NCBI GenBank assembly: GCA_028823995.1
Contig: JAPPFD010000040.1
Location: 1-64,000 of the forward strand
Reading direction: 5' to 3'
DNA from: a bacterium
Lineage (GTDB): Bacteria; Actinomycetota; Acidimicrobiia; Spongiisociales; ZC4RG35
Length of the DNA stretch: 64,000 bases
The translations under genes and the position numbers were made by a program. The notes below the pieces were generated by a model that had not been told where the DNA came from, made no database searches, and saw nothing but the letters and a program-made list of their open reading frames with translations. Shown piece by piece: positions 486-56,637 of this stretch (position 1 is the stretch's first letter; each line of letters begins with the position of its first letter).

Positions 486-489
486 GATT

Positions 490-509: not shown

Positions 510-550
510 ATAGGATTGGGTTTAGCCCTCCCATCCGCCCGTTAAAAGAG

Positions 551-606
551 AAGGGGCCTCGGTATTCACCCCAAGCCAAGAAAGAGGTGAATCCGAGGCC
601 CTTTTC
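551..606 (+). terminator. Strong Rho-independent terminator-like hairpin
   Basis: GGGCCTCGG plus ATTCACC on the left arm (554-570) pairs with GGTGAAT plus CCGAGGCCC on the right arm (586-601), with one bulged T, and is followed by TTTT. This has the form of an intrinsic terminator and probably ends the transcript of the small coiled-coil gene. Confidence 0.65.
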
Positions 607-1692: not shown

Positions 1693-1794
1693 TCAACCAG
1701 ATTCACACTGAACCACTACCGGAGATCGGTCGACTGTCGAACGGCGCCGGATGAGGGTCTCACCGGCTATCGCATGTGAACTCTTCGGTGTTTC

Positions 1795-1905
1795 ATGGAC
1801 ATCGCAGTAGCTGTAGCAGTGGGTGTCTGTAGGACGCTTGTCCGGCTGGTCAAGGACCTCGAAGCCAAAGCGGAGGAGAAGAAGAACCGTCGACCGGACA
1901 CATAG
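1795..1905 (+). CDS. Possible 36-residue small protein
   Basis: A short open frame with a hydrophobic Ala/Val-rich start followed by a Lys/Glu-rich tail. There is no clear ribosome binding site and no recognised family. It lies between two real genes on opposite strands and could be a chance frame. Confidence 0.2.
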   Translation: MDIAVAVAVGVCRTLVRLVKDLEAKAEEKKNRRPDT

Positions 1906-1956
1906 TGGCCCGCCCGACCCATATCGCCTTTACTGATGCTGACTTGCCGTTCCGGC

Positions 1957-2421: not shown

Positions 2422-2443
2422 GGCGGCTCTCGGCGCCGGCGGG

Positions 2444-3613: not shown

Positions 3614-3644
3614 CCTGTCCCTCTCTGGTCGTGCGGCACGGTTC

Positions 3645-4019
3645 CTACTCGCCTTCGGTTTGGTCCATTGCGGCGGCCTGGTACACGCCGAAGACTATGC
3701 CCTGGGGGTCGCGGCAGTAGGCGACTTGCCCGACCTCGGGTATGTCCTGGATGGGCACCACCGTCTCGCCCCCGGCGGACGAGATCTGCTCCAGGGCTTG
3801 GTGAATGTCCTGTACGTCCACCGTGATCACGGTGCGAGCCTGGTCGTCGGGCGAGGGCATCAGCGCGCCGTTTATTCCCGGCCGGTCGTCTGGGCCGGTG
3901 GTGGCCAACCAGTACGGGAAATCTCCCCACTGCTGGAACGTCCACCCCAGCGCCTTGGAGAAGAAGTCCTGGCTGGCCGCCGGATCGGGACTTTGATACT
4001 CGAAATGAACCGGTCGCAT
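3645..4019 (-). CDS. VOC-fold (glyoxalase/bleomycin-resistance-like) protein
   Basis: A 124-residue single vicinal-oxygen-chelate domain. It opens with MRPVHFEYQSPDPAASQDFF and ends with a YCRDPQGIVFGVYQ segment, both typical of the fold (beta-alpha-beta-beta-beta modules). VOC proteins bind a metal and act on small molecules as lyases, isomerases or dioxygenases, or simply bind them; the substrate cannot be told here. It lies 31 bases before fabF and 12 bases after the acyl-CoA dehydrogenase, so it is almost certainly in the same operon. Confidence 0.8.
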   Translation of the reverse strand: MRPVHFEYQSPDPAASQDFFSKALGWTFQQWGDFPYWLATTGPDDRPGINGALMPSPDDQARTVITVDVQDIHQALEQISSAGGETVVPIQDIPEVGQVAYCRDPQGIVFGVYQAAAMDQTEGE

Positions 4020-4031
4020 GAACTTTCCTTT

Positions 4032-5840
4032 CTAGTGGGCAGTCGTCTCGGGTCTGAAATCCAGCTCGTACAAAAGCTCGGATCCGCCCGACGCCGCGCT
4101 CTCCAGGGAAGCGGCCTCGGGGAGGAGTTGCTCGCAGTAGTAGCGGGCGGTGGCGACCTTCTGCCGCAGCCAGTCGTCGTCTGCTCCGGACGTTCCGATC
4201 TTCTGTAGAGCCGCCTGGGCGGATCGGACCATCAGCCATGCGCCCATCACCGTGCCGAACATCGTCAGGTAGGGGTAGGCGCCGGCCAGGGCGCCCTGGT
4301 AGTCCCCCTTGGCCAGGTGAGACCCCAGGGTGAGGCTGGATCGCCCGAGAGTCCGGACCGCCCGGGCCAATTCCTCGCCGGACGCCTTCAACTCGGCGAC
4401 CGAGGAGGCCTCGGCAGCGGTGACGCCTACCTGCTCCAGCAGTTCCTTGACCGCGGCGCCCATGCGTATGGGGAGCTTTCTCATCACCAGGTCGATGGCC
4501 TGGATGCCGTTGGTCCCCTCATAGATGGGGCTGATGCGGGAATCGCGGAAGAACTGGGCGGCGCCGGTCTCCTCGACGAATCCCATGCCGCCGTGGATCT
4601 GGATGCCCAACGACGCCACCTCCACCCCCAGGTCGCTGCACCAGGCCTTGGCGATGGGGGTCAGGACCGAAACCAACTCCTCGGAGTGGGTCCGCTCCTC
4701 ATCGGTATCGGCGTAATGGGACCGGTCGACGGCGGCCACGCAGTAGAACAGGAGAGCCCTCATCGCCTCGATGCGTGCCTTCATGGTGGCCAGCATCCGC
4801 CGAACGTCCGGGTGTTCCACGATCAGGGACTGCTGGCCGCGGGGAGCCCCCACCGCTCTCCCTTGGCGCCGCTCCCAGGAGAACTCCAACGCTTTCTGGT
4901 AGGCGCGCTCGGCCACTGCCAACCCGCCCTGTCCGACGGCGATCCGCGCCGCGTTCATCATGGTGAACATCCGCGCCATGCCTCCCTGTTCGGGACCCAC
5001 CAGGTAGCCGACCGCCCCGCCTTGCTCGCCGTAGGAGAGCATGCAGGTGGGGCTTCCGTGAATGCCCAGCTTGTGCTCCAGGGAGACGGTCCTGATGTCG
5101 TTCAGTTCACCCGGCTTCCCGTCGGGGCCCACCAGGCGCTTGGGCACTATGAAAAGCGAGATTCCCTTGGTGCCCGCTGCAGCGTCGGGGGTGCGGGCAA
5201 GGACGGTGTGGATGATGTTGTCCGCCATGTCGTGGTCGCCCCAGGTGATGAAAATCTTGGTGCCGGTGATCCGGTAGGTTCCGTCCGGCTGGGGGATGGC
5301 CTTGGTGGTGAGCGCGCCGACGTCGGAGCCGGCGTGGGGCTCGGTGAGGTTCATGGTGCCCGACCACTCTCCGGTGATGAGCTTCTCCAGGTAGAGACCC
5401 TTCTGCTCGGGGGATCCGTGCATGTTCAGGAGGTGAACGGTTCCGGTGGTGAGAGTGGGACACAGAGAGAACGACAGGCTCGAGGAGATCATCATCTCAT
5501 CGACTGCAAAACCCACAGCCTGGGGCATTCCCCCTCCGCCCCAGTCGGCGGGCAGAGAGATTGCCTGCCAGCCCGCTTCGACCAGTTTCCGGTAGGCCTC
5601 GGCGAACCCGGTTGGAGTCTTCACCGTCCCGTCCTCGGTGAGGACCGACCCTTCAAGATCACCGACCGGGTTGAGGGGGGCCACCACTTCGGAGTAGAAG
5701 CGCCCGGCTTCTTCCAGTAGTTCGCCAACGGTTGCCGGATCGGCGTGCTGGTATCCGTTGAGTTTGGCCAGGGTCTCCAAGTCGACGATGTGTTCCAGCA
5801 CGAAGCCGATGTCTCGGAGGGGAGGCCGGTAAACGCTCAT
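4032..5840 (-). CDS. Acyl-CoA dehydrogenase (long form with C-terminal extension)
   Basis: A 602-residue flavoenzyme introducing an alpha-beta double bond into acyl-CoA. Domain order: N-terminal helical extension (about 1-75), acyl-CoA dehydrogenase N, middle (MNLTEPHAGSDVGAL, FAD contact) and C domains, then an extra C-terminal domain of about 120 residues typical of the 590-600 residue subfamily. The IHGGMGFVEETGAAQFFRD and RISPIYEGTNGIQA segments are the FAD-binding and catalytic-glutamate regions. It is the first gene of the minus-strand operon with the VOC protein, fabF and trmL, and is divergent from ppk1 across 127 bases. The substrate is unknown; members act on fatty acyl or aromatic acyl thioesters. 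Confidence 0.92.
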   Translation of the reverse strand: MSVYRPPLRDIGFVLEHIVDLETLAKLNGYQHADPATVGELLEEAGRFYSEVVAPLNPVGDLEGSVLTEDGTVKTPTGFAEAYRKLVEAGWQAISLPADWGGGGMPQAVGFAVDEMMISSSLSFSLCPTLTTGTVHLLNMHGSPEQKGLYLEKLITGEWSGTMNLTEPHAGSDVGALTTKAIPQPDGTYRITGTKIFITWGDHDMADNIIHTVLARTPDAAAGTKGISLFIVPKRLVGPDGKPGELNDIRTVSLEHKLGIHGSPTCMLSYGEQGGAVGYLVGPEQGGMARMFTMMNAARIAVGQGGLAVAERAYQKALEFSWERRQGRAVGAPRGQQSLIVEHPDVRRMLATMKARIEAMRALLFYCVAAVDRSHYADTDEERTHSEELVSVLTPIAKAWCSDLGVEVASLGIQIHGGMGFVEETGAAQFFRDSRISPIYEGTNGIQAIDLVMRKLPIRMGAAVKELLEQVGVTAAEASSVAELKASGEELARAVRTLGRSSLTLGSHLAKGDYQGALAGAYPYLTMFGTVMGAWLMVRSAQAALQKIGTSGADDDWLRQKVATARYYCEQLLPEAASLESAASGGSELLYELDFRPETTAH

Positions 5841-5967
5841 CTTCAGTAACAGAGAATATCAAGATGCCGGCCCTCGCCTTAAAGCGAAAACTTCTGGCTG
5901 CTCAGGCCGGGGAGGGCCTATTCTTTGGGCGAAACTGGATTCTGCCCACTGCCGCCCCCGATTTCAA

Positions 5968-8016
5968 ATGACCACCCGGAACGACCCTTCACGCTTTTTC
6001 AACCGAGAGCTCTCCTGGCTGGACTTCAACAGCAGGGTGATCGCCCTGGCCGAACAGGAGGAGACGCCGCTCTTGGAGAAGGTGCGGTTTCTGTCCATAT
6101 GGGCTTCGAATCTTGACGACTTCTTCCAGATCCGGGTGGCCGGGCTCAAGGAGCAGGTCGCCCACGGGATAATGAGAAAGAGCCCCGACGGGCGCACGCC
6201 GGGCCAACAACTCTCCGCCATCCGCGCCGAGACCTCCGAGCAGTACCTGCGGGCCTCGAAGATCTTCCGCGACCTTCTGGTGCCGGGTCTGGCCGAGGCG
6301 GGTCTGGGCCTGAAGTCCTATGCAGACCTGGATGATCAGGCGAAGGCCTACCTGGACCGCTACTTCCATGCCACGGTCTTCCCGGTTCTGACTCCCCTGG
6401 CGGTGGACCCTGCCCATCCCTTTCCCCACATTTCCAGCCTCTCTCTCAACCTGGCGGTCCACGTGCAGGAGGGAAGGAGCGGAGCGGTGAGATTCGCCAG
6501 GGTCAAGATCCCCCCCATCCTTCCCGCGTTCGTGCCCCTGCCCGATAGCGGGTGGTTTGTCCCGCTGGATGAGTTGATCGCCGCCCACCTTGACGAACTC
6601 TTCCCGGGGATGCGCATCCTCGACTACCACCTCTTCCGGGTCACCCGCAATGCGGACTTCGAGTTGGAGGAGGACGCGGGCGGAGACCTCCTGTCGGCCG
6701 TCGAGTCGGAGTTGACCCGGAGGCGGTTCGGCCGGGCGGTCCGCCTGGAGGTGACCGGCACGATGAGCAGCGAGGCGCTCGACATGCTCATCCGGGAACT
6801 CCAGATAACCAGGTCGGACGTGTATGTCATGGACGGGGTGCTGAACACGGCCGACCTCATGTTCATGGCCTCCCTTCCCCGGTCGGAGTTGCAGTACCGA
6901 CCCTGGACTTGGGTCACCCACCCCCGCTTGGCGGCGCGCATCAGTGACCACCTGGACATCTTCCAGGTGATCCGGGAGGGGGACATCCTGGTGCACCACC
7001 CGTATGACTCGTTCGCCTCCTCCGTGGAGGAGTTCATAGTGCAGGCTGCTGCCGACCCCAACGTGCTGGCCATCAAGCAGACCCTGTATCGCACCGCCAG
7101 CGACAGCGTGATCATGAACGCCCTGATGGAAGCGGCAACACGGGGAAAGCAGGTGGTGGTGCTAGTGGAGTTGAAGGCCCGATTCGACGAAGACGCCAAC
7201 ATCACCTGGGCTCAGAGGCTGGAAGATGTGGGCGTGCATGTCGTCTACGGGGTGGTGGGACTCAAGACCCACACCAAGATCGCTCTGGTGGTCAGGCGGG
7301 AGGGGGATCAGATCCGGCGTTACTCCCATATCGGGACCGGCAACTACAACGAACAGACCGCCCGCATCTATGAGGACTTGGGGCTGTTCACCTGTGACGA
7401 GGCGGTGGGCGCCGATTTGAGCTTTTTGTTCAACTACCTGACCGGCTACAGCCGCCATTCGGTGTACCAGAAGCTCCTGGTGTCGCCCATCTTCACCCGT
7501 CCCCGCATCCTGAAGCTCATAGCGGAGCAGGCCCATCCCGAGGGTCTGATAACCATGAAGATGAACTCCCTGGTGGACCCGGCGATGATCGAGGCCCTGT
7601 ACGCCGCCTCCGAGGCCGGGGCGAAGATCGATCTGGTGGTCAGGGGGATCTGTAGTCTGGTGCCGGGGGTAGAGGGGATGTCGGAGAACATAAGGGTGCG
7701 GTCCCTGGTGGGGAGGTATCTGGAGCACTCGCGGGTCTACCGGTTCGGTGGTCGGGATAACCGGGTCTACTACATAGGATCGGCCGATTTGATGCAACGC
7801 AACCTCGACCACCGAGTGGAGGCCATGGCGCCCATCGAGGACCCCGACCTGCAGTTCCGTATCGACGAGATCTTCGAGGTGCTGATGGCCGACGACACTC
7901 TCTCCTGGGAACTGGGACCCGATGGGAAGTGGACCAAAGTGGCGGAGCGGCAGGGTCTGAGCACCCACGTCGAGTTGCAGGACCTGGCGGAAGCCAGGGC
8001 GCAGGCCCGGTTCTGA
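5968..8016 (+). CDS. ppk: Polyphosphate kinase 1
   Basis: A 682-residue PPK1, full family length, which reversibly moves the ATP gamma-phosphate onto polyphosphate chains. Four domains are visible: the N-terminal helical domain (RFFNRELSWLDFN at the start), head domain, and two phospholipase-D-like C domains. The autophosphorylated histidines fall at His435 (GLKTHTK) and His454 (YSHIGTGNYN), with the nearby NEQTARIYEDLGLF block intact. No ribosome binding site precedes the ATG, so translation may be leaderless-like. It stands directly upstream of the pst-phoU-regulator block, consistent with phosphate storage tied to phosphate uptake. Confidence 0.96.
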   Translation: MTTRNDPSRFFNRELSWLDFNSRVIALAEQEETPLLEKVRFLSIWASNLDDFFQIRVAGLKEQVAHGIMRKSPDGRTPGQQLSAIRAETSEQYLRASKIFRDLLVPGLAEAGLGLKSYADLDDQAKAYLDRYFHATVFPVLTPLAVDPAHPFPHISSLSLNLAVHVQEGRSGAVRFARVKIPPILPAFVPLPDSGWFVPLDELIAAHLDELFPGMRILDYHLFRVTRNADFELEEDAGGDLLSAVESELTRRRFGRAVRLEVTGTMSSEALDMLIRELQITRSDVYVMDGVLNTADLMFMASLPRSELQYRPWTWVTHPRLAARISDHLDIFQVIREGDILVHHPYDSFASSVEEFIVQAAADPNVLAIKQTLYRTASDSVIMNALMEAATRGKQVVVLVELKARFDEDANITWAQRLEDVGVHVVYGVVGLKTHTKIALVVRREGDQIRRYSHIGTGNYNEQTARIYEDLGLFTCDEAVGADLSFLFNYLTGYSRHSVYQKLLVSPIFTRPRILKLIAEQAHPEGLITMKMNSLVDPAMIEALYAASEAGAKIDLVVRGICSLVPGVEGMSENIRVRSLVGRYLEHSRVYRFGGRDNRVYYIGSADLMQRNLDHRVEAMAPIEDPDLQFRIDEIFEVLMADDTLSWELGPDGKWTKVAERQGLSTHVELQDLAEARAQARF

Positions 8017-8042
8017 GGACCGGGGGCCAACTAGCGCCAAGA

Positions 8043-8096
8043 ATTCACGTTCCGTTCGCATTTAGCACGGATCTGTGTTCACTTCCGTCCCTTAGC
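8043..8096 (+). promoter_or_regulatory. Candidate PHO box upstream of pstS
   Basis: Two related direct repeats lie in the ppk-pstS gap: TTCACGTTCCGTTCGCATTT ending in TAGC (8044-8066) and TTCACTTCCGTCCCTTAGC (8078-8096). GTTCAC-like half sites with about 11-base spacing are the PhoP/RegX3 recognition pattern in other actinobacteria. This would let the regulator at 12756 control pstS. The repeat is seen; the regulatory role is inferred. Confidence 0.4.
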
Positions 8097-8187
8097 GTGA
8101 GCGCATATGGGTGGGACCCGCGCCCGAGGGCTATTGCTTTCCTACGGGTCGCGAACGTGTTCTCGAGCTCAGGAGTCTGGATATCAG

Positions 8188-9228
8188 ATGAACTTCGCCG
8201 ACCAACGTCTTCTCCGCTGGGGGGCAGCGCTGTCGGCCCTGCTTTTGTTGGCAGCGGCCTGCGGGGGAGATGATGACAGCGATGCGCCCGCCAGCACCGC
8301 GGCGCCGGCCACCGAGGGACTGACGGGTTCGATCGAGGTTTCCGGTTCTTCGACTGTGGAGCCGATCACGGCTTTGGTGGCAGAGAGGTTCAATAGTGCG
8401 CATCCTGGTGTGGGGATCTCGGTTGAGGGTCCCGGCACGGGTGATGGTTTCCAGCGGTTCTGCGCAGGTGAGATCGATATCTCGGATGCTTCCCGGGCCA
8501 TCAAGGTTTCGGAGGTGGAGGCTTGCGCCGAGGCCGGTGTCGAGTGGGTCGAGTTGAAGATCGCCTTCGACGGTGTCAGTGTATTGACCTCTCCTGACAA
8601 CGATGCCGTGAGCTGTTTGGACACCGGTGACTTGTACGCGCTGGTGGGCGCGGAGTCCGAGGGCTTCCGGTCCTGGTCGGACGCCGATGGCCTGGCCTCC
8701 GAGTTGGCCGCGGCCGGTTTGGGCGGTTCGGGTGCTCCGTATCCGGATGCTCCGCTGGTGATCACCGCTCCTGGTGAGGAGTCGGGCACTTTCGACGCGT
8801 TCGTGGAGTTGGCGTTGGAGGACATCACCGAGGAGCGTGGTCAGGATGAGCCGACCCGTGTCGACTATCAGGCTTCGGCGAATGACAATGTGATCGTGGA
8901 CAACGTCAGTTCCAACCCGACTTCGTTCGGTTGGGTGGGGTTTGCCTTCTATGTGGAGAACAGTTCGGTGTTGAAGGCGATCGAGATCGACGGCGGCGGC
9001 GGGTGCGTGGCGCCTTCGATCGTGTCGATCGCCGACGGGTCCTATCCGTTGTCGCGTCCCCTGTTCATCTATGTTTCGCTGAGCCGTCTGGCCGAGAATC
9101 CGGCGCTGGGTCCGTTCGTGGACTTCTACCTGGGCGACGGCTTCTTCTCGGTCGCCGAAGCAGGCTACGTGACCCTCCCCGATGACGAGATCTCCGCCAC
9201 CAGGGCCGCCTGGGCAGGGGTCGGGTAA
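8188..9228 (+). CDS. pstS: Phosphate ABC transporter substrate-binding lipoprotein PstS
   Basis: A 346-residue lipoprotein that captures phosphate outside the membrane and delivers it to PstCA. The signal peptide ends in the lipobox LAAAC (Cys25). The mature protein has the phosphate-binding signatures GSSTVEPIT, GTGDGFQRFC and PGEESGTFDAF. I chose the ATG at 8188 because the preceding 27 residues would put charged sequence before the signal peptide; AGGAG sits 12 bases upstream. The open frame does extend back to 8107. Codon choice differs from pstC (more GGT and TTG). It is the first gene of pstSCAB-phoU-regulator-kinase. Confidence 0.95.
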   Translation: MNFADQRLLRWGAALSALLLLAAACGGDDDSDAPASTAAPATEGLTGSIEVSGSSTVEPITALVAERFNSAHPGVGISVEGPGTGDGFQRFCAGEIDISDASRAIKVSEVEACAEAGVEWVELKIAFDGVSVLTSPDNDAVSCLDTGDLYALVGAESEGFRSWSDADGLASELAAAGLGGSGAPYPDAPLVITAPGEESGTFDAFVELALEDITEERGQDEPTRVDYQASANDNVIVDNVSSNPTSFGWVGFAFYVENSSVLKAIEIDGGGGCVAPSIVSIADGSYPLSRPLFIYVSLSRLAENPALGPFVDFYLGDGFFSVAEAGYVTLPDDEISATRAAWAGVG

Positions 9229-9249
9229 GGTCTCGGACCGGATCTGATC

Positions 9250-10206
9250 ATGCAGGCAAGGAATGTGCTCGGCACTTCGGCCCCGCTGGATCTCTCCGGC
9301 GATCCGCGCCGGTTGCGCAAGGAGCGGAACGTGCGTTGGCTGTTCCTGTCGGCCGCCGTTTTCACGATCCTGGTGAGCGTCGCCATCGTGCTCAGCCTGG
9401 TCGGGGAAGCAGTGGCCTTCCTGCAAAGCATCGCCTCGGAGATCGACGAGGGCCTGGGTTCTCTCATGGCAGACGGATGGTTCCCGCGCAGGGACCGGTT
9501 CGACCTGCGGACCATCATCTGGCACACCCTGTCGGTCTCGATCATCGCCATGCTGGTGGCCACCCCCCTAGGCCTGGGGGCGGCCGTCTACCTGAGCGAA
9601 TACGCCAGACCGGGGGTGAGACGGGTCCTGAAGCCGGTGTTGGAGGTCCTGGCGGGAATCCCCAGCGTGGTCCTGGGTTACTTCGCGCTGCGCTTCATCA
9701 CTCCCGACATCCTCCGCAACCTCTGGGACACCGCCCAGCAGTCCAACCTGATGGCGGCCGGGATCGGCGTGGGCATCCTGATCATTCCTCTTGTCTCATC
9801 GGTCTCCGAGGACGCCATGCAGGCGGTGCCCAGAGCCCTCCGGGAGGCCTCCTACGGTTTGGGCGCCAAGAAGTGGCACACCTCAGTGCGGGTGGTGTTC
9901 CCGGCGGCCCTGTCGGGGATCGTCGCCGCTCTGATCCTGGGGCTCTCCCGGGCCATCGGGGAGACCATGGTGGTGGCCATCGCCGCCGGCGCCACCGGGG
10001 GCTCTCTCCTGCAGCTCAATCCCCTCTACGGCGGCCAGACCATGACCGGCGCCATGGCTTCCCTCGCCATCGGCTCCGACCAGGTGGCCGGCGGGGTGGC
10101 CGCTTTCCAGAGCCTCTTTTTCGTGGGGCTGCTGCTGTTCCTGATGACCCTGGTCCTCAACATTGGAAGCGAGCGGCTGGTGCGTCGCTTCCGGCAGAGG
10201 TACTAG
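9250..10206 (+). CDS. pstC: Phosphate ABC transporter permease PstC
   Basis: A 318-residue inner-membrane permease with about six helices. It forms the phosphate channel with PstA. The binding-protein-dependent transport signature (EAxxxLGA-type EASYGLGAKKWHTSVRVVFPAALSGI) contacts PstB. A FDLRTIIWHTLSVSIIAMLVATPLGLG segment starts the transport domain. It lies 21 bases after pstS and 18 before pstA in one operon. Confidence 0.95.
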   Translation: MQARNVLGTSAPLDLSGDPRRLRKERNVRWLFLSAAVFTILVSVAIVLSLVGEAVAFLQSIASEIDEGLGSLMADGWFPRRDRFDLRTIIWHTLSVSIIAMLVATPLGLGAAVYLSEYARPGVRRVLKPVLEVLAGIPSVVLGYFALRFITPDILRNLWDTAQQSNLMAAGIGVGILIIPLVSSVSEDAMQAVPRALREASYGLGAKKWHTSVRVVFPAALSGIVAALILGLSRAIGETMVVAIAAGATGGSLLQLNPLYGGQTMTGAMASLAIGSDQVAGGVAAFQSLFFVGLLLFLMTLVLNIGSERLVRRFRQRY

Positions 10207-46797: not shown

Positions 46798-47088
46798 GCT
46801 CCTCTGTGAAGGGAAAGCAAAGGGACATCGCCGGGCTTGTCCAAGCAGGCTTGGTCAGTCGATGGCGGCCGGCGGGTACCTGTCGGTGAGCAGCATCCCG
46901 TACGCCCACAGGCGGGCATCGACGCGCACCCGGGCGGTTGTCAACCGGAACAGCCCATCCGCATGAATCACCCAGACTCAACGACCCGGGGTTTCCCCTT
47001 ATCACATCCAAATACCATATTTTGGAGACCTAAACTCACTCACTGTGCACATTTCCGTGAATCCCGGGCCGGGAACGAAGGAGTTGAT

Positions 47089-49815
47089 GTGACAGCCACT
47101 CGGCCGGTGGTGATGGGCCTGACGCTGCTTGTCACGCTGTTGGCTGGATGTTCCGAAGAGCCGCTTACAACAACGGCAGTTGCCGAACCGGAGGCGACAG
47201 CCGCTCCGACCACCACCCCCGCCACTCCCACAACGCCAACGGCCACCACCGTTCCTCCACCGCCTACGACGACGGCCACCACCCTCGCCACTCCCGCAAC
47301 GCCAACGACGACCTCCACCACGTCGGCTGCCGAGCCGGAGTCACAAGCCGGATCAGAATGGTCGATCCCGGCTAAGCGGGGATACTCCGACGACCCCGGC
47401 GTTTTGAGCGAGTACGTCAAGCCGACTGCGGTCGACGGGGTCGGCTCCATAGACGGGACGGGGCGGAAGCTGCTGGCTATCTACATGGTGGGTAGTGACC
47501 TGGAGGAGAACCAACTCGCTGCCTCCCTCGATTTTGGAGAATTGGTTGCGGGTTACACCGATCTTGCCAATCCGGAGGACGTTGAAATCGTCGTCGCCTT
47601 CGGAGGCGCCAACAAGGACGGCTGGAGGGGCATGAAGATCGCCAGCGGTCCCCAGATTGTGTCAGACTCCGTTGACCAGGAGTTCGGCAACGAGACCGGT
47701 CGCGACTCCTATCTCTACAGAGCCGATGGGGCCAACATGGGCCACGAGAGTTCCCTCAAGCTCTTCCTGGACTACCTGAGGGACGGGTATGTGAACTTCG
47801 ATCAGAGGTTCCTCGTTTTCTGGGACCACGGGAACACTTACATGGGATTTGGTGGCGACACGAACTTCAACTCGGATCGGCTGTCCATGGACGAGATCAC
47901 GAATGCGTTCAATGGCAGCGGGGCGGGGATCTTTGACCTGATCGGCTTCGATGCCTGCCTGATGGCCACAGTGGAGGTGGCGAAGGTGATCGAACCTCAT
48001 GCCCGGTACATGATCGCATCCGAGGACTTGGAGCCAGGACACGGATGGCTCTGGAGCGCGGTGGTCGAAGCGTTCGCCGAAGAGGACAGCATCGTCGAGG
48101 CCGGGAAGCGAATGGTCGACAACTTCGTCCTGGACGTGCACTATTACCTGGACACGGGCAAGACACTTTCGTTGCTGGACCTGGGCGAGTACCACAATCT
48201 GGTAGACGCCCTGGACCCGGTGGTTTCCACCTTCAGCGCCCGGATGTTCGACAGTCAGGAATTTGCCGAAGGGCTGATCGCTGCCGAGACAGACGTCCGA
48301 TCCTATGCCGTCTCCGAACGGAACGACTACCGGGCTTCCATGGACCTGATGCACTTCGCCCACTTGCTGGAAGATCATCTTTCAGACCCGGGACTGGGCG
48401 GGAGTCTGGACCGGCTGATGGACGCGATAGACCGGTTCGTCGTCCACTCCAAACACGACGGATCCAGGCCCGATTCCCATGGCGTGGCCATCGATGCCCC
48501 GGAAAACACCCACGCCTGGTACTCGGCATACAAAGTCAGTGACGCCTGGCTGGACTTCCAGAGCGTGTACCAGGACTTCCGCTTGGCCGACACGGAACCG
48601 CCGGTGATCGAAGCAGAGTATTGGGACGCGGAGGGAACATTGGCCACCGTCCGTGACCGATACTTAGCCGCAGTTACGACGCTGTACGGGTTCGTCCAAC
48701 CGATCGAAAGCGAAAACGGGATGGTTGAGGACTTTTTCATGGTGGTTGCCGAGGAAGAAGCCCATGCCACCGAGGATGAGGATGTCTACTTCGCTCCCTC
48801 GTGGTCCCAGGTGTGGTTTACGGTGGAGTATGACCCGGAGAGGGACACGGCCTGGATACCCGCATTCTTATCCAACCGCTTGGAGGTGGATGGAACGGAG
48901 TACCTGCTCTTTGACGCATACGTCGACTACTACCGGGCTGGGAAGGACTACAGCGGCTACGAGTACCCGTACGACCTTGCCCGGTTGACTCTTGGCGTCC
49001 ATGACGACGGTGAGACCTGGACGATAGTTGGCCACTCCGTCCAGACCTACCAGGTCCTGTATTCCGGCCCAGATGATGAAGAAGGCACGGTCCAGTACGA
49101 CAGGGCCAGTTTCAGGATATCCCCCGGAGATAAGGTCGAATTCTTCAATTTCGGATTCAACCTCGGGGACTCGGGAGAGGACGACTGGTTCCCCACCGCC
49201 GACGGGTTGGTGACTTTCGTCCAGGAGCCGGCCTTCTGGTTCGAGTTCCTCGAGTTCGAGGACGAGTCGGGAGAGCTCATCGACTACTACTACGCAATCT
49301 GGGCCGAGGATGCCGCCGGCAATGGGACCCTGGGTTATCTGGTGCCGTCGGAACCGGTTGAGGATGCGCCTCTCGGGGATTCACCCATCGAGGAAATGCA
49401 GACCTTCGTGGAACCGGCCGGGTTCTTCGAGGTGCAGACGCCGCAGGCTTGGATAAAAGAAGAGCCGGACGCGGAACAGACCGAGGTATTCAGGGCTTCG
49501 GACCCCGACGGGAACGGGACCGTGATCATCTATGCCTGGGAGTTCCCTGGGTTGTCTCAGGCCGAGTACGCCGACGATTTGGAGCCTTGGCTCATCGAAA
49601 CGGGCGCCACCGACCTAACGAGGGAGACTGTTACGACTGCCCAGGGTGTTCCTGCGGTCCTGTTCGAGGGCCTGTCGGGTCAAGAGGCATTCTCCTGGCT
49701 GGCTCACGTGTCGGATGGTGTCGGCGTCGAGATCGTCTACTGGTTCCCCATCGACCAATTCGAATCGGGAAGGGCGTTGGCGTATAACTCTTTCGACACC
49801 CTCCTGGTCTATTGA
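47089..49815 (+). CDS. Clostripain-family (C11) cysteine peptidase lipoprotein
   Basis: A 908-residue lipoprotein. The GTG at 47089 has a perfect AAGGAG six bases upstream, and the signal peptide ends in the lipobox LLAGC (Cys21), so I start here rather than further upstream. A Thr/Pro linker (about 30-85) precedes the caspase-like C11 domain (about 110-430). Catalytic His247 (FWDHGNTYMG) and Cys290 (GFDACLMATVEV) are intact. C11 proteases cut after basic residues. The remaining 450 residues are beta-rich and acidic with no domain that I recognise. It is probably an outward-facing protease; partners are unknown. Confidence 0.85.
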   Translation: MTATRPVVMGLTLLVTLLAGCSEEPLTTTAVAEPEATAAPTTTPATPTTPTATTVPPPPTTTATTLATPATPTTTSTTSAAEPESQAGSEWSIPAKRGYSDDPGVLSEYVKPTAVDGVGSIDGTGRKLLAIYMVGSDLEENQLAASLDFGELVAGYTDLANPEDVEIVVAFGGANKDGWRGMKIASGPQIVSDSVDQEFGNETGRDSYLYRADGANMGHESSLKLFLDYLRDGYVNFDQRFLVFWDHGNTYMGFGGDTNFNSDRLSMDEITNAFNGSGAGIFDLIGFDACLMATVEVAKVIEPHARYMIASEDLEPGHGWLWSAVVEAFAEEDSIVEAGKRMVDNFVLDVHYYLDTGKTLSLLDLGEYHNLVDALDPVVSTFSARMFDSQEFAEGLIAAETDVRSYAVSERNDYRASMDLMHFAHLLEDHLSDPGLGGSLDRLMDAIDRFVVHSKHDGSRPDSHGVAIDAPENTHAWYSAYKVSDAWLDFQSVYQDFRLADTEPPVIEAEYWDAEGTLATVRDRYLAAVTTLYGFVQPIESENGMVEDFFMVVAEEEAHATEDEDVYFAPSWSQVWFTVEYDPERDTAWIPAFLSNRLEVDGTEYLLFDAYVDYYRAGKDYSGYEYPYDLARLTLGVHDDGETWTIVGHSVQTYQVLYSGPDDEEGTVQYDRASFRISPGDKVEFFNFGFNLGDSGEDDWFPTADGLVTFVQEPAFWFEFLEFEDESGELIDYYYAIWAEDAAGNGTLGYLVPSEPVEDAPLGDSPIEEMQTFVEPAGFFEVQTPQAWIKEEPDAEQTEVFRASDPDGNGTVIIYAWEFPGLSQAEYADDLEPWLIETGATDLTRETVTTAQGVPAVLFEGLSGQEAFSWLAHVSDGVGVEIVYWFPIDQFESGRALAYNSFDTLLVY

Positions 49816-49957: not shown

Positions 49958-50416
49958 GTGAAACACCTTAGGGCAATTGCTCGCCACCGCATGGATCAAC
50001 GGTACCGCCAGTTGGGTCCTCTGTCTCAAATGGTGCGCCCTCATCGCGGCTGGATTCGTGCTGTTCGGGACGCCTTGGGTATGTCTGGGGCGGAACTTGG
50101 GCATCGGCTGGGGATCAGTCAGCAACGCGTAGCGGCGCTGGAGAAGGCCGAAGAGCAGCTATCTATCCAACTTGATACCTTGGAGCGGGTCGCTGACGCC
50201 CTCAATTGCCACCTTGTATACGCCCTGGTACCCAGAACGAGTCTCACCGAGGCCGTGGAGGCGCAAGCGAGGAGCAAAGCGACACAGATTCTGCGCCGAG
50301 CGGCTCACCACAGTCGCCTCGAAAACCAAGCAAGCAATGAAAGCATTGATGCCCGTATTGAGGACTTGGCCGAAGATCTTACGGATCGAAGGGGTCTGTG
50401 GGATCCCTCCCGATGA
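49958..50416 (+). CDS. Mobile mystery protein A (XRE-type antitoxin-like)
   Basis: A 152-residue protein matching the mobile mystery protein A family. It has an N-terminal helical part and a helix-turn-helix domain of the XRE/Cro type (about 34-85; ALGMSGAELGHRLGISQQRVAALEKAEE). The family always pairs with a Fic-domain protein, which follows with a four-base overlap. It probably represses its own promoter and may neutralise the partner. The region is lower in GC than the flanks. Confidence 0.9.
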   Translation: MKHLRAIARHRMDQRYRQLGPLSQMVRPHRGWIRAVRDALGMSGAELGHRLGISQQRVAALEKAEEQLSIQLDTLERVADALNCHLVYALVPRTSLTEAVEAQARSKATQILRRAAHHSRLENQASNESIDARIEDLAEDLTDRRGLWDPSR

Positions 50417-51000
50417 TTGACCCTTGGACACCTGAGGGCGAAGGTCATACCCCGCTGACCGAGGAGGACCGGATGGGACTTATCCCGTCCTACATCGGCA
50501 CCCGAGGCGACCTGTTCGATGCCGAGGAACGTAACATCGCCTACGCCCTCTTGCGGCAGCCGCCAACAGTCGCTGATCTGTTGGATGACCTGTACCTGCG
50601 GGACCTTCACAGGGCAATGTTCGGCCAAGTGTGGGAATGGGCCGGTCAATACCGGATAAGACAGACCAACATAGGCATTGAACCAGACCGTATCCCCTCG
50701 GCGGTGCGGTTGCTGGTCGGCGATGTCGCCGCTTGGGTGGAACATCAAACATACGAACCTGACGAATCCTGCGTCCGGTTCCATCACCGCCTTGTCTCCA
50801 TACACCCTTTTCCCAATGGAAATGGCCGGCACAGTCGAATCTGCGCCGATTACCTCCGCATTGCCTTAGGGGAAACACCGTTCAGTTGGGGCTTGCATCT
50901 CGATGTGACCACCGAACAGTTGAGGGGGTACTACCACGCGGCTTTGCGAGCCGCAGACGCAGGCGATGTACGCGAACTGATGATCTTCGCGCGAAGTTGA
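50413..51000 (+). CDS. Mobile mystery protein B (Fic-domain protein)
   Basis: A 195-residue Fic protein. The active motif HPFPNGNGRHSR (near residues 137-148) has the catalytic histidine and the anion-hole residues of AMP-transferring Fic enzymes, so it should be active unless inhibited. I prefer ATG at 50413 (MIDPWTPEGEG), overlapping the stop of gene A; a GTG at 50398 would add five residues. No inhibitory alpha-helix motif (S/TxxxE[G/N]) is obvious in B itself, consistent with control by A. Together they resemble a toxin-antitoxin module. Confidence 0.9.
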   Translation: MIDPWTPEGEGHTPLTEEDRMGLIPSYIGTRGDLFDAEERNIAYALLRQPPTVADLLDDLYLRDLHRAMFGQVWEWAGQYRIRQTNIGIEPDRIPSAVRLLVGDVAAWVEHQTYEPDESCVRFHHRLVSIHPFPNGNGRHSRICADYLRIALGETPFSWGLHLDVTTEQLRGYYHAALRAADAGDVRELMIFARS

Positions 51001-51550: not shown

Positions 51551-51985
51551 GCCTTGGCAATTGGTGTTGGGGTCCGGTTGTTTGGTGGTCCGTTAGCGAC
51601 CACCTCTGACCTGCACCTAAGCAAGGCGTTCTGAAGACACTCCACATTTGGAGGGGGTGGTGCTCCACATTTTGCGGGACTGTGCGGTGTCGCCTTGGCT
51701 AGCCCGTCCAACCTCAATTCGTCTCCCGCGGACCGAGAAACGGAGGTCGCGTTCTATGTCGTTGAACAGGACCGGGTCGTCCTGAGCTGTGCTTATCGCC
51801 AACACATGCGGAGGCTCCGCTGTCTCGCCGTGGTCAACATCATCGGTATGTAGACCCCCATTCTCATCTGAGAATCAAACGCTTCAACTCTGCCCGGCTG
51901 AACCGGCTGCGGTGCTCCCAGGCAATTTGGTGGCTTCTTTCACTGCTGTCTATATTGAGCCCCCCACAGAAAGTCTGCACGATTC
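51551..51985. other. Degenerate region before the small Trp/Cys-rich gene
   Basis: No intact gene. CTCCACATTT occurs twice (near 51629 and 51663), as short direct repeats. Short open frames on both strands are broken and unrecognisable. The missing front part of the truncated gene at 51986 is not found here. Confidence 0.4.
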
Positions 51986-52261
51986 ATGAAGATCCAGAGA
52001 GGAGCGTCCGATGAATACTGCAATTCAGAGGACTGGCATCTTCACCACGAAGAAATAGTCGATCAATGGGTCAAAAAGCATTACAGACTTAGGTACGTTT
52101 GCGGCCGCAAGTCGAGTGTCAAACGGAACGCGTGGATATGGCGGGTCGGGAGCACCGACTGGCGCTGCTCCGACGGGCAGAAACAAGTGTGCACGAAGTA
52201 CTCCGGTGACGAGTGGCAGTGCGGCAATTGGCAGGATACGGTGTGCCCGGTTGTTGTCTGA
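51986..52261 (+). CDS. Truncated Trp/Cys-rich small protein (MauA-like), copy 1
   Basis: A 91-residue protein that matches the C-terminal half of the Tat-exported protein at 53813: EYCNSEDWHLHH, NAWIWRV, TDWRCSDGQ, NWQDTVCPVVV. It keeps six of ten cysteines and the tryptophans but lacks the Tat signal and the first four cysteines, so it is probably a truncated, non-exported copy. A stop codon lies shortly upstream in frame. Downstream, 53 bases away, is the first beta-propeller gene. It resembles the light chain of methylamine dehydrogenase (TTQ, made from two tryptophans) only distantly. Confidence 0.6.
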   Translation: MKIQRGASDEYCNSEDWHLHHEEIVDQWVKKHYRLRYVCGRKSSVKRNAWIWRVGSTDWRCSDGQKQVCTKYSGDEWQCGNWQDTVCPVVV

Positions 52262-52314
52262 GGGGGACTTTCGCGCCGAAGTGGGACGATACCCAACGGC
52301 CTAGGGGCTGAGGA

Positions 52315-53439
52315 ATGTTGAGAGCCTGGCGGTGGTGGTTGCTGCTGATCGCCGTGGTCGGGCTGCTGGTCGGGTGGGAAACCGGGTTCTTTCATTCCCG
52401 TGTCGTGACCCTCGAGTGGGAGGGCGAACCGGTGGAGTTCCGGGTGCTCGCTATAAATCATCAGGGTGGGTTTGCGGTGGTCGACCTGGCCGCCGGTGTG
52501 ATGCGAGTTGAACGGTTCGACCATCGTGGACTTCAATATGGATCGGTTGACGTGGCAGCGTTCACCAGGTCGGGCGATCTGCTGGTCCATCCGTACGATG
52601 AACCAGTCCTGTACGTGGTGCCTGGCGGGGACATCTCTGCTGCACCCGCGGTCATTCGCCTGCCAGGATTCGGCAAAGCCGGCGCTGATTCAACTTACAC
52701 CCTGGGCTATGATGTCCAGGCTCTGGGGGATCAATCCGGAGAGAACATCTGGTTGTTGAAGCGAACCTATGCTGGCACGTTGGTCGAACTGATCACCAAA
52801 GTAGGAGCCGTACTGGCTGAGTTCGAACTGAAGGGCTCCTACTACGCGGCCGGGTTGTTGGACAATGACCTTGTTGTCATCAACCAGTACGACCGAGAGG
52901 ATCTGGTGCTGAAAAGCACCGGCGTCATCGATGAGGTGACGACATGCCGAGACGACACAGAGAACGGAAACCTACGTGTCGTTTCTGTGCACGGACACCA
53001 CACCGCTTGTCTCAGCGATGACGAAAGACAACTGGTCCTCTATGACGTGACCTCCGGGCAAACCGACCGGTTCACAGCGTTCGAGTCGGGCCACTGGTCA
53101 CCCAGTGTTCTGCCCGTAATCCCAGCAGAGGTAGCGAACATCGCAGGGATTCATACGGATCAACTGGTACTCACCTACGAGGAACCGGATCCGACGAACC
53201 AATACAGGATCACGAAAGCGCTCTACGCGGCCGACCTTTCAAACCACACCATGCGATGGCTGTACGACAAGCAGGAGGGAGAGGGTCTCAAGCCGTTGGG
53301 CATTGTGGACGACCTCCTGTTTTTCGCCACCGGGGTGATTGGCCAAGGCGAGGCCATCGTGGCCATCGACCTCCGATCAGGAGAGCGGCAAACAGTCGTC
53401 GAACTGCCCGAAGGGTATTTCATATATGACGCTGCCTGA
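52315..53439 (+). CDS. Membrane-anchored beta-propeller-like protein, copy 1
   Basis: A 374-residue protein. An N-terminal helix (about 5-24) anchors it, then repeated short beta-strands with motifs such as GGFAVVDLAAGVMRVERF and ERQLVLYDVTSGQTDRF that suggest a six- or seven-bladed propeller. It shares its layout and several segments with the protein at 54418 (paired cysteines CRDD and ACLSDD are conserved), showing gene duplication. In methylamine dehydrogenase the heavy chain (MauB) is also a propeller that docks the small subunit. The ATG of the next frame overlaps its stop by 14 bases. Confidence 0.7.
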   Translation: MLRAWRWWLLLIAVVGLLVGWETGFFHSRVVTLEWEGEPVEFRVLAINHQGGFAVVDLAAGVMRVERFDHRGLQYGSVDVAAFTRSGDLLVHPYDEPVLYVVPGGDISAAPAVIRLPGFGKAGADSTYTLGYDVQALGDQSGENIWLLKRTYAGTLVELITKVGAVLAEFELKGSYYAAGLLDNDLVVINQYDREDLVLKSTGVIDEVTTCRDDTENGNLRVVSVHGHHTACLSDDERQLVLYDVTSGQTDRFTAFESGHWSPSVLPVIPAEVANIAGIHTDQLVLTYEEPDPTNQYRITKALYAADLSNHTMRWLYDKQEGEGLKPLGIVDDLLFFATGVIGQGEAIVAIDLRSGERQTVVELPEGYFIYDAA

Positions 53440-53796
53440 ACGGCCGCGCACATCCCCGACGCGGTGTCATCGCACACCGCCGATCCTGTTGTTTTTGGGT
53501 CTGCCCGCTCATAGTCGGGTCCGTAATCTGGGTTGTCACCACCAACGATCTGTGGGCATGGATGGCCATAGGCTCCGGTGTTCGTGGTGAGCGATCAGGT
53601 CTATCCGTCCGAGGGCGTATCTGGAGAAGATGCGGTGGCCTGGTTGGTGGACGCGGACGCGGCTGGCCGCTTCGGCGTGCCCGCTTTCCCATGGCTCGTA
53701 GTCGTGGACACGGAAGGGAACGCTGTCGTCCACGAAGTAGCCCACGACCCGGACAGAGTTACAGAACGTATCAGGGAATGTCCCTGTTGGAGTTAG
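53426..53796 (+). pseudogene. Decayed thioredoxin/MauE-MauD-like gene
   Basis: A frame starts with ATG at 53426, overlapping the propeller stop by 14 bases, and runs MTLPERPRTSPTRCHR ... PPILLFLGLP. It loses register, and another frame (GTG at 53578) carries the C-terminal half of a TlpA/MauD-type thioredoxin fold: FVVSDQVYPSEG, then FGVPAFPWLVVVDTEGNAV. A CXXC is missing. Frameshifts and a probable deletion explain this. Its position between propeller and light-chain-like gene equals mauE-mauD in a mau cluster. Confidence 0.5.
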
Positions 53797-53812
53797 GCGA
53801 GAGGAGAACCCT

Positions 53813-54379
53813 ATGAAATTGGCTGATTTGCCTTCGGCTGTTCGCCCACCGGCCGGCCATTCCGTGGACAGGTTGTGGAAGCGCGAAAGGCGGCGAGCAA
53901 CAAGGCGGGAATTCCTTCGTCTGGCGGCAAGCGCCGGGGTGGCGACCGGTCTGGTCTTCGTGTCGTTCATGCCGACCGCCCGCCGAGCGTACGCCACCAA
54001 CGAAACCCCGAGTACCTATTGGCCCCAATCAAGAACGGATCGTTGTTACGGACGTAACTCCGTTCACTCTCTGGCGTCAGGGACCGGATGCTGTAGTTGC
54101 GGCTCGGATGTGTCCGATGATTACTGCAATTCCGAGGATTGGCACCTACACCACACGCAAAACCCGAGTCAGCACGTGAAGATCTATTACAGACTTCGGG
54201 ACCACAGTTGCGGAAGAGGCGTGGAAAAAAAGGAGAATAGAAAGAACGCGTGGATTTGGAGGGTCAGTGGCACCGATTGGCGTTGCTCCGATGGACAGAG
54301 GAAGTACTGCTGGTCCAACAACGGCGGACAGTGGGAGTGCGAAAGCTGGCGGAATACCGTATGCCCAGCCATCGTCTGA
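53813..54379 (+). CDS. Tat-exported Trp/Cys-rich small protein (MauA-like), copy 2
   Basis: A 188-residue protein with a twin-arginine signal (TRREFL at residues 30-35, hydrophobic stretch to about 55). The mature part has ten cysteines (78, 93, 94, 96, 105, 133, 158, 166, 176, 184) and conserved tryptophans at 110, 147, 149, 156, 174 and 179. This recalls the disulfide-rich, Tat-exported light chain of methylamine dehydrogenase, which makes the TTQ cofactor from two tryptophans: here Trp110 and Trp156 would be the candidates. Similarity is in pattern, not clear sequence, so the assignment is tentative. GAGGAG lies upstream of the ATG, and the gene is followed by the second propeller gene after 38 bases. 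Confidence 0.7.
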   Translation: MKLADLPSAVRPPAGHSVDRLWKRERRRATRREFLRLAASAGVATGLVFVSFMPTARRAYATNETPSTYWPQSRTDRCYGRNSVHSLASGTGCCSCGSDVSDDYCNSEDWHLHHTQNPSQHVKIYYRLRDHSCGRGVEKKENRKNAWIWRVSGTDWRCSDGQRKYCWSNNGGQWECESWRNTVCPAIV

Positions 54380-54417
54380 TGACTTCACTGGTCGCCTGGA
54401 GATAACTCGACATTGCT

Positions 54418-55830
54418 GTGAGCAGACGGTATCGGAGACACCGGCGGAAAGCGGCAGTAGTCACAGTCCTAGTAGTTGGCGGGTTGCTGAGTGTCCTGCT
54501 GTTTCAATCCCACAGTACCCCTTCAACTCCCGCAGGTGAGTCGACAGCATTTTCACCGACGACCCTGCCGACCATCGGATCAACCACCACACTCTCACAA
54601 GCCGTAACATCCACAACGTCACCACCTGCGAACGGATCGGCTGAAGGGAACCAAACGACGCCTTCTAGGGTTGAGGATGTTCCGTCAAGCGATCCAGAAG
54701 GAGAAGAGACTACGGACGATCCGTCTGATACGCAGGATGGATCGGAGTTATGGCCTTCCTCGCCCGAGTTGACGTTTCCTCCGCTGCCTCCAATAGAAGT
54801 GCCGCTGGATTGGGATGGGGAGCCAGTTGGGTTCAAGGTTCTGGCCCTTAACGCCAGCAATGATGGTTTCGCCGTTGTGGATTTGGTCGACGGTGTAATG
54901 AGGGAGTACCTGCTGGGGCATCACGACCTACCGTTTGGTTCTGTCAACGTGGCGGCCTTCACTCGACAGGGCGACGTTCTGGTCCACCAATCTGGAGAAC
55001 ACGATACGTATGTTGTGGCCGATGGGGACTTCTCCGCAACACCGTCTGTCATCAATCCTTCAGAACGGATCATCGAAACCGAATACGACACCTTCACCTA
55101 CTACGCAGAGATGCAGGTATTAGGGGACCGGTCTGGAGACAAGGTCTGGTTCTTACAACAAACCCCTTCGGACACTACTTTGGTTGACCTCGTCAGTATC
55201 GACGACAGTGCAGCGATGTTGACGGTGCCGCTTGACGGCTCTTATTGGATAGGCGGGCTGTCAGAAGATGGACTCTTTTTGGCAGGCGACCGAGGCAGCC
55301 TGGCCATCAGCCCCAGCGGAACCGTGAAAGAAGTCTCCTCTTGTCGAGACGAACCCGCGCAGGATCACCGGTATCTGGTAGCGGTGTTCGGGAATTACAC
55401 TGTTTGCATCACTGACGACAGCCGACAGTTGGTTTTCTACGATGGGAACACCGGCCTAGAGGATGTGTTCGTAGCCCCCGAGTCAGGCAGATGGTCAGGA
55501 ACCGTTTTGCCGGAGATCCCTGCGGTGAACATGACGGGAGTGCATACCGATCAGTTGCTGTTCCGGTTGCAGATTCCCGATGTCGAGAACCCGCCGTACT
55601 ATAAGGCGAAAGCAGTGTATGTGGCTGATCTGTCAGAGCACACTGTGCGACTGGTGCACGAGTACGAGGAAGGACGGTACGGTTCACCGTTGAGTGTCGT
55701 GGATGGCCTGCTGATATTGAAAGCAGGAGTTGAGGGGGAAAACTCAATAGTCGTCGTAGATATCGCATCCGGGGAATGGCATAAGGTGGTTGACCTTCCC
55801 GAGGGCTACTTCGTCTATGACGCCAAATAA
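54418..55830 (+). CDS. Membrane-anchored beta-propeller-like protein, copy 2
   Basis: A 470-residue paralogue of the protein at 52315. After an N-terminal helix (about 11-28) comes a Ser/Thr/Pro-rich linker of about 95 residues, absent from copy 1, and then the propeller domain starting LDWDGEPVGFKVLALNASNDGFAVVDL. Conserved pieces with copy 1 include FGSVNVAAFTRQGDVLVH and CRDE...CITDDSRQLVFYD. The GTG start lacks a strong ribosome binding site. It is probably the heavy-chain-like partner of the Tat protein upstream. Another frame starts inside its end with a 14-base overlap. Confidence 0.7.
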   Translation: MSRRYRRHRRKAAVVTVLVVGGLLSVLLFQSHSTPSTPAGESTAFSPTTLPTIGSTTTLSQAVTSTTSPPANGSAEGNQTTPSRVEDVPSSDPEGEETTDDPSDTQDGSELWPSSPELTFPPLPPIEVPLDWDGEPVGFKVLALNASNDGFAVVDLVDGVMREYLLGHHDLPFGSVNVAAFTRQGDVLVHQSGEHDTYVVADGDFSATPSVINPSERIIETEYDTFTYYAEMQVLGDRSGDKVWFLQQTPSDTTLVDLVSIDDSAAMLTVPLDGSYWIGGLSEDGLFLAGDRGSLAISPSGTVKEVSSCRDEPAQDHRYLVAVFGNYTVCITDDSRQLVFYDGNTGLEDVFVAPESGRWSGTVLPEIPAVNMTGVHTDQLLFRLQIPDVENPPYYKAKAVYVADLSEHTVRLVHEYEEGRYGSPLSVVDGLLILKAGVEGENSIVVVDIASGEWHKVVDLPEGYFVYDAK

Positions 55831-55933
55831 ACGAATACTTTTGCCCCGTTTGGTTGTTCCTCTCGCAACGCTTTGTTTGCCTTTGGTGGGCGGGTGGATG
55901 CTGTGGGCTATCACAGGAGCCGACAGTTGCTGA
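55817..55933 (+). pseudogene. Truncated small membrane-protein gene, third gene of cassette 2
   Basis: ATG overlaps the propeller stop by 14 bases, exactly as the equivalent start does in cassette 1. The 38-residue product is a basic N-terminus plus one hydrophobic helix (RLVVPLATLCLPLVGGWMLWAI) and stops inside a piece of reversed lepB sequence. It is likely the 5' remnant of a membrane redox protein gene (MauE-like) cut off by recombination. Confidence 0.45.
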
Positions 55934-56150
55934 CCAGTATCCGATCGTCAACCAAGAAGGCGGGTGTCATCGACGTCGACGGTATGTAGAACGCCTGTAG
56001 CAGGAACGTTTTGATGATGACCGCCAGCAACAAAGAGAGGCACAGCACCGCGGGGAGTTCCCGGCGAAGCCGAACCCGACGAGGGTTCCTCTTCTCGGTT
56101 CCCGTCATGTCGGCATGTTCCAAGGCATCTTCGCTATCACCCACCGACAT
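55911..56150 (-). pseudogene. lepB: 5' fragment of a signal peptidase I gene (lepB)
   Basis: A 79-residue product with a membrane helix (about 33-50) and the catalytic-serine segment FYIPSTSMTPAF (Ser60), then VDDRILVSN, the family's next strand. After that it departs into CRLL and a stop. Signal peptidase I normally has 180-260 residues and its catalytic lysine comes later, so this copy cannot be active. The cut site (about 55924) coincides with the end of the truncated plus-strand gene. Confidence 0.7.
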
Positions 56151-56548
56151 GACGACCTTTAGGGAACGGACGCATGTTCACCGCTCACCTGCCCAGCAGA
56201 GTAACCGTTGATGCCTCTCGCCTTACGAATCCAGCCCTGCCCTTGGCTCTAGACATCGAGTGGCAGATGCTATACCGCAGCACCGCTACTGTCCCGGTGC
56301 CTATCTCTGTCCTTCTTCGAGTACATCCCGCTGCAGCTTTACCAGCTTGGCTGCTAACCCCCTTACTGTCGGTCTCGCCGCGCCCGAACAACCAAACGCT
56401 GACACCTGGCCGCTGGAAACACCACGCTCACAGGTCGAACCCACCCTCTCAAACGGGGCCAAACCCCTCGAAACCACCGAAAACCGGCAAAACCGGCGCG
56501 TCTGCGGCTAAGTCGCTAACGCTGGGGGCATAGATCGCTAACGGACCT
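56151..56548. other. Gap between the lepB fragment and tRNA-Leu
   Basis: Open frames here on both strands look random (low-complexity Pro/Ser/Thr). CGCTAAC-like sequence recurs near 56514 and 56535. The stretch lies at the 3' end of the tRNA-Leu, where mobile elements often integrate, but no integrase or tRNA-end repeat was found. Confidence 0.35.
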
Positions 56549-56637
56549 TGGTGGGCGAGGGGGGACTTGAACCCCCACGGGTTTTAAAGCCCACAGGATC
56601 CTGAATCCTGCGCGTCTGCCAATTTCGCCACTCGCCC
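56549..56637 (-). tRNA. tRNA-Leu (anticodon CAG)
   Basis: Minus strand. Acceptor GGGCGAG/CTCGCCC, anticodon stem CAGGA/TCCTG with loop TTCAGGA giving CAG, long variable arm, T arm GGGGG TTCAAGT CCCCC. Unlike the other tRNAs in the window, the 3' ACCA end is encoded. Confidence 0.93.

Follow-up and report, generated by a model that had tools for sequence, protein, structure and literature searches.

Does an arrangement of genes like that of methylamine dehydrogenase (MADH) identify a member of that enzyme family, or may it also be shared by unrelated exported proteins? This question is raised by a duplicated cassette located at positions 51986–55933 of a 64,000-nucleotide stretch of bacterial DNA (contig JAPPFD010000040.1 of assembly GCA_028823995.1, positions 1 to 64,000; hereafter the window), which encodes small tryptophan- and cysteine-rich proteins together with propeller-like membrane proteins. 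An earlier note, made from the letters of the sequence, described the cassette as a possible divergent system of the MADH kind in which Trp110 and Trp156 of the small protein may form the cofactor. The gene order and coordinates that it gave are correct by the open reading frame (ORF) lists and translations:

51986–52261, plus strand: P0002, a truncated Trp/Cys-rich protein of 91 amino acids, without signal peptide, sharing 58% identity with the C-terminal domain of P0001.
52315–53439, plus strand: P0003, a membrane-anchored propeller-like protein of 374 amino acids (N-terminal hydrophobic stretch; propeller model).
53578–53796, plus strand: P0005, the C-terminal fragment of a thioredoxin-type protein (19.3 bits with a MauD-like profile; match to the TlpA-type redoxin L166).
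53813–54379, plus strand: P0001, 188 amino acids, with a twin-arginine translocation (Tat) signal (residues 1–61) and a Trp/Cys-rich mature domain containing 10 cysteines (translation; pattern scan).
54418–55830, plus strand: P0004, a membrane-anchored protein of 470 amino acids with a long linker and a propeller domain (translation; hydrophobic stretch; 47% identity to P0003).
55911–56150, minus strand: the N-terminal fragment of a signal peptidase I (PF10502, 5.6e-6; TIGR02227, 8.9e-7).

The two related small proteins, the two related propeller-like proteins and the decayed thioredoxin-type gene between the units are present as had been claimed, the Tat signal being kept in P0001 only; the last gene, previously read as a truncated membrane gene, is the signal peptidase I fragment. 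The cassette is a duplication in which the order small protein–propeller is identical in both units (intergenic gaps of 38 and 53 bp). Three of its six genes are truncated, namely P0002, the thioredoxin-type remnant and the signal peptidase I fragment. P0001 and P0004 have unbroken ORFs that retain their signal, anchor and cysteines, and constitute the sole unit that looks intact today, with neither thioredoxin nor MauE alongside.

In the reading that we favor, to which we assign an even chance, the cassette encodes an orphan exported protein that docks on a membrane-anchored propeller, in a half-decayed state and carried on an insertion at a tRNA-Leu gene. Each unit would provide a small disulfide-rich and tryptophan-rich protein, exported folded via Tat, together with a membrane-anchored extracytoplasmic beta-propeller. 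The disulfides of the exported domain would be formed with the help of a thioredoxin-type partner, and the small protein may dock on the propeller of P0004, held outside the membrane on its long linker, in the way that MauA docks on MauB; the pair could then form a surface complex with a redox, binding or scaffold role. That the thioredoxin gene has been lost and MauE is missing suggests either that general thiol oxidation is enough or that the system is fading.

The cassette lies within an insertion, the limits of which are as follows:

51587–56547, strand not applicable: a transposition-like insertion of ~4.96 kb carrying the cassette, evidenced by its 13-bp inverted ends (51587–51599 and 56535–56547) and by empty sites.
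56549–56637, minus strand: tRNA-Leu(cag), with the insertion at its 3' end (ARAGORN; empty sites).

The block is absent at this site from three congeneric genomes (G003, G001, and G004): in G003 the window sequence through 51588 joins straight onto 56548, while the empty sites of G001 and G004 carry additional small differences on their left sides. The inverted repeats at the ends are perfect, and a direct repeat of 5 bp (TTGGT) lies on either side of the block. In two further genomes, G005 and G002, the tRNA-Leu likewise adjoins the right 190 bp of the block, next to which G002 has a fragment of an IS30 transposase. The inverted ends, the empty sites and the shared right end indicate that a ~4.96-kb unit bearing the cassette came, or was moved, into a hot spot. 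The tRNA-Leu(cag) gene does look like a hot spot for insertion at its 3' end, as its neighbors differ among G000, G002, G003, G004, and G005. To the left of the insertion, a mobile mystery protein A/B pair with HTH and Fic domains (49958–51000) is outside the insert, because G003 and G004 have that DNA too, and a gene for a clostripain-family peptidase (46837–49815; PF03415, 5.3e-40) occupies DNA that is missing at this place in these two genomes.

The N-terminus of P0001 (ATRREFLRLAASAG...AYA-TNETP) includes the canonical Tat motif TRREFL, a hydrophobic stretch and an AYA site, which support an export signal, with Pfam and NCBIfam Tat models scoring the protein under their cut-offs; in a pattern scan of the window P0001 was the sole ORF with a Tat motif and at least five cysteines. 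In the domain shared by P0001 and P0002 the cysteine columns are identical in 6 of 6 cases and the tryptophan columns in 6 of 8, so that 12 of the 14 W/C columns are identical compared with 50 of 84 aligned columns overall (hypergeometric P = 0.026). Both Trp110 and Trp156 are kept in P0002, a decayed copy and the only relative of P0001. Nei-Gojobori counts gave nonsynonymous (dN) and synonymous (dS) divergences of 0.34 and 1.93 for P0001/P0002 and of 0.46 and 2.23 for P0003/P0004, and, as synonymous sites are near saturation, these figures show only that replacements were restrained. Based on the comparison of the two copies, past purifying selection on P0001/P0002 is supported.

Membership of P0001 in the MauA family was examined by profile, cysteine and motif tests and was rejected on all three. 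Searched at E values as high as 10, neither Pfam nor NCBIfam gave a match to the MauA models (PF02975/TIGR02659), and the small protein fell into no family. The profile-profile comparison with MauA proposed in the earlier note gave no signal above shuffled columns: hhalign of P0001/P0002 against eight MauA/AauA sequences returned a probability of 0.08%, with 36 of 40 shuffles as high, and against an order-wide family with the motif CPPGT...GWW (see below) 0.15%, with 37 of 40 as high. Over the MauA, Thermomicrobium roseum and order-wide profiles together, probabilities were 0.08–0.24% and were equaled or beaten by 29–37 of the 40 shuffles. The bulk of these column shuffles was relied upon, since one order-wide-family shuffle reached 130 and a reversed MauA profile outscored the true one, so that single hhalign scores on Cys-rich profiles are noisy. 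Pairwise tests of P0001 against 46 mature Cys-rich domains gave a best p of 0.003 (L133) and a next best of 0.010, which are not significant for 46 tests. MauA has a 12-cysteine pattern with CPPG, whereas the mature part of P0001 contains 10 cysteines and lacks that motif. Six tryptophans are identical in P0001 and P0002; those that form tryptophan tryptophylquinone (TTQ) are residues 114 and 165 of the L061 precursor, and alignment of P0001 to MauA is unreliable. The Tat-type signal peptide, a MauA feature, is present in P0001 by motif, with hidden Markov model scores below cut-off.

In 296 genomes of the phylum no PF02975 match exceeded the cut-off; a match in G144 (8.4e-4, under the cut-off, with one internal stop) has neighbors in L022 that look like housekeeping genes. 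No MauE match (PF07291, E ≤ 0.001) was found in the window's genome, which is 94.8% complete, and no ORF with two CxxCH motifs, as in a MauG-like protein, occurs in the window, the rest of the genome not having been searched for MauG. The clusters for methylamine and aralkylamine dehydrogenase (MauA/MauB and AauA/AauB; e.g., Paracoccus denitrificans, NC_008688.1) are alike in the kinds and order of genes, with a propeller, a redox accessory and a small Tat-type disulfide-rich subunit; they differ in that P0001 lacks sequence membership and the window has neither MauE nor a MauG-like gene and retains a thioredoxin remnant only. The likeness to a mau cluster noted earlier is reasonable as a comparison of architecture, with a parallel in T. 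roseum, and is not supported as family membership, given the missing MauA profile and MauE and the propellers that occur alone. An undescribed quinocofactor-like system, as had been proposed, is not supported by these results.

Regarding the propellers, the AlphaFold2 model was of moderate quality (mean predicted local distance difference test score, pLDDT, 51.9; predicted template modeling score 0.53). Foldseek placed TolB, kelch, prolyl-peptidase and other propellers in its top rows (TM-scores of 0.3–0.4), and a second structural comparison ranked heavy chains of methylamine and aromatic amine dehydrogenases 7th, 10th, 15th, 16th, and 18th (Z 11.5–10.6), with RbBP5 and peptidases differing from them by no more than about one Z unit. 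The modeled fold supports the assignment of P0003 and P0004 to the propeller class, from which no kinship is drawn, and the matches fit a propeller partner without singling out MauB. No sequence signal was obtained between the window propellers and two MauB-type sequences. Propeller matches were found in 7 of 99 close genomes, the own genome counted (the match in G060 spans only residues 10–73, in the linker region); 296 genomes of the phylum, searched at E ≤ 1e-5, gave none outside the own one. P0003 is most closely related to a protein of its own genome, encoded on contig C30 (75% identity, dS 0.37), and for this reason the propeller has its origin within the lineage and not in a distant one.

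A MauD-like profile run over 518 ORFs of the window had the remnant as its sole clear match (19.3 bits; next 3.9). The closest intact matches of the remnant include L166, which adjoins a gene that we read as DsbB-like. As the MauD-like profile also scores this TlpA-type redoxin at 29.5 bits, the designation "thioredoxin-type" is established and "MauD" is not.

A docked pair has several results to contend with. Convincing relatives of P0001 were found in none of 99 close genomes, 138 of the order and 396 of the phylum, nor in GTDB species contigs, viral contigs, plasmids or phages; two phylum matches, L003 (E 3.5e-4, residues 26–83, two internal stops) and L004 (E 8.9e-4, residues 14–63, in a 1224-aa frame), covered mostly the signal region and were dropped. 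The search for the pair in other actinobacteria that the earlier note suggested therefore yielded no convincing P0001 relative in the 396 genomes beyond the own one, and the linkage of small protein and propeller is based on the two copies in the window. The AlphaFold2 model of P0001 is uninterpretable (mean pLDDT 39). By pattern scan, no Tat protein with at least five cysteines was detected near the propellers of G003:C8, G000:C30, G080, G030, and G018, while one was detected near that of G038. The earlier note had named propellers occurring without the small protein as evidence against its proposal, and same-family propellers without a Tat/Cys-rich protein were found at these five loci, one of them in the same genome. 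These five loci, and the finding of the small protein in one genome only, would agree with two unrelated extracytoplasmic genes that travel together, the propeller working by itself, as it does elsewhere, and the small secreted disulfide-rich protein serving separately, e.g., at the surface or in competition. We consider this explanation doubtful though worth keeping in view, as the order of the pair is kept in both copies, with gaps of 38 and 53 bp, and both members are conserved in sequence. It is also conceivable, with a smaller probability, that the locus is the decaying end of an island, that is, remnants at a tRNA hot spot in which P0001 and P0004 are non-functional; three truncated genes out of six and the different neighbors of the tRNA in G005 and G002 (including the IS30 transposase fragment in G002) would be expected from such decay, against which stand the intact ORFs of P0001 and P0004 with their signal, anchor and cysteines.

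A divergent member or mimic of MADH, with P0001 as a light chain bearing a tryptophan-derived quinone (e.g., from Trp110 with Trp156 or Trp174) and P0004 as the heavy chain, is very unlikely. The Tat signal, the richness in cysteine and tryptophan, the propeller partner, the thioredoxin remnant and the six tryptophans identical in both copies would all suit it, as would the heavy chains of MADH and aromatic amine dehydrogenase that figure among the solved structures closest to the propeller model (Z 11.5–10.6) and the MauA–propeller cassettes of T. roseum, which have no MauG-like gene nearby. These points are set against the lack of a MauA profile match, hhalign scores not above shuffles, 10 cysteines instead of 12 without CPPG, the lack of PF02975 above cut-off in the phylum and of MauE in the genome, the lack of a two-CxxCH ORF in the window, structural rows tied with RbBP5 and peptidases, and propellers that occur alone. 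Only a slight chance is given to the most far-reaching reading, in which P0001/P0004 would be a surface enzyme, carried on a small mobile segment, with a cofactor made from its own tryptophans (TTQ-like, or a new Trp-Trp or Trp-Cys crosslink) in the absence of MauE and MauG, the light chain being too diverged, or convergent, for any profile to detect.

The best analogue of the layout in the window is a cluster of T. roseum. A Paracoccus MauA query gave a 37% match on the plasmid of this organism, in a MauA-like/propeller cluster (L053, NC_011961.1 475850–488068, positions 49–9349) around TRD_RS14725, a gene annotated as MADH light chain (NC_011961.1). At least four MauA-like genes alternate with propeller-like genes in this cluster, followed by a thioredoxin-like and a membrane gene, and one propeller is fused to MauE; one MauA-like gene is frame-broken as read and was excluded from the counts. 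The T. roseum and MauA profiles matched with a probability of 98.6% (E 7.2e-16) and a score of 86.5, where 40 shuffles reached 23.7 at most. One small protein matched PF02975 (9.2e-9), and in all three proteins compared the MauA cysteines (12 of 12) and the two TTQ tryptophans are retained. The 12-kb stretch has no ORF with two CxxCH motifs, as for a MauG-like protein. This cluster resembles the window in the small exported Cys/Trp-rich proteins that alternate with propellers, with MauE and a thioredoxin-like gene in the cluster; it differs in that its small proteins are true MauA homologues, the features of which P0001 lacks, and in that its propellers share no detectable sequence with those of the window.

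A related arrangement was observed across the order (L021, 7813–12757, and 27 loci among L062–L089), consisting of MauE, a Tat Cys/Trp-rich protein with the motif CPPGT...GWW, a thioredoxin-like protein and a membrane protein. Of 99 relatives, 33 have the family, none of them belonging to the genus of the window, and no match to it occurs in the window's genome. By profile-based extraction 28 loci were counted (L071 of G044, without a complete ORF, and G050, G051, G076, and G084 were left out), and in these the Cys/Trp-rich protein is accompanied by MauE (28 loci), a thioredoxin-like gene (27), another membrane gene (21) or a propeller (two). The 28 sequences have an invariant WW and 17 near-invariant cysteines; the proteins carry SLH or other C-terminal parts, and the Cys/Trp-rich domain had no Pfam name in the one tested. 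The membrane gene after the thioredoxin-like gene, which is labeled "mauF-like" by its position, had no match in Pfam or NCBIfam. Comparison of the family with MauA by hhalign gave 2.3%, with 2 of 40 shuffles as high, which is not significant, and it is the motif and the operon that would link it to MauA.

As in the window, a Tat-exported Cys/Trp-rich protein is associated with a thioredoxin-type partner in this operon (e.g., L021, G038), and G038 and G065 (partial) also have a nearby propeller of the wider family of P0004; the differences are that the small proteins have no detectable similarity to P0001 and that a propeller is near in only 2 of the 28 loci. The propeller of G038 was assigned to that wider family by hhalign of the window set vs the G038/G030/G018 set (98.5%, E 3.8e-15) and has in its vicinity a CPPGT...GWW protein, a thioredoxin-like gene and MauE (Pfam, 2e-11). 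A limited number of full-text literature searches brought up no publication on either the order-wide MauE operon or the T. roseum cluster.

Other MauE loci were observed as well. A contig of a congener (G003:C1; L093, 7345–15348) encodes MauE, a thioredoxin-like protein, an SLH-like protein and a different Tat Cys-rich protein of 139 amino acids, after which a TolB-like ORF begins at the end of the contig. In other genomes of the phylum, MauE genes have various small Tat Cys-rich proteins nearby (L101, L104, L114, L121, L123, L133, L134, and L163), and MauE homologues adjoining Cys-rich putative precursors have been noted in Streptomyces (PMC7794033).

If the pairing of small protein and propeller is functional, the layout of methylamine dehydrogenase would be a single instance of a broader class of exported complexes. 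Directly testable are the MauA homologues of T. roseum, in which all 12 cysteines and the two tryptophans of TTQ are kept although no MauG-like gene lies in the 12-kb stretch, and the conserved order-wide operon, which ties MauE and a thioredoxin-like protein to an unassigned exported Cys/Trp-rich protein.

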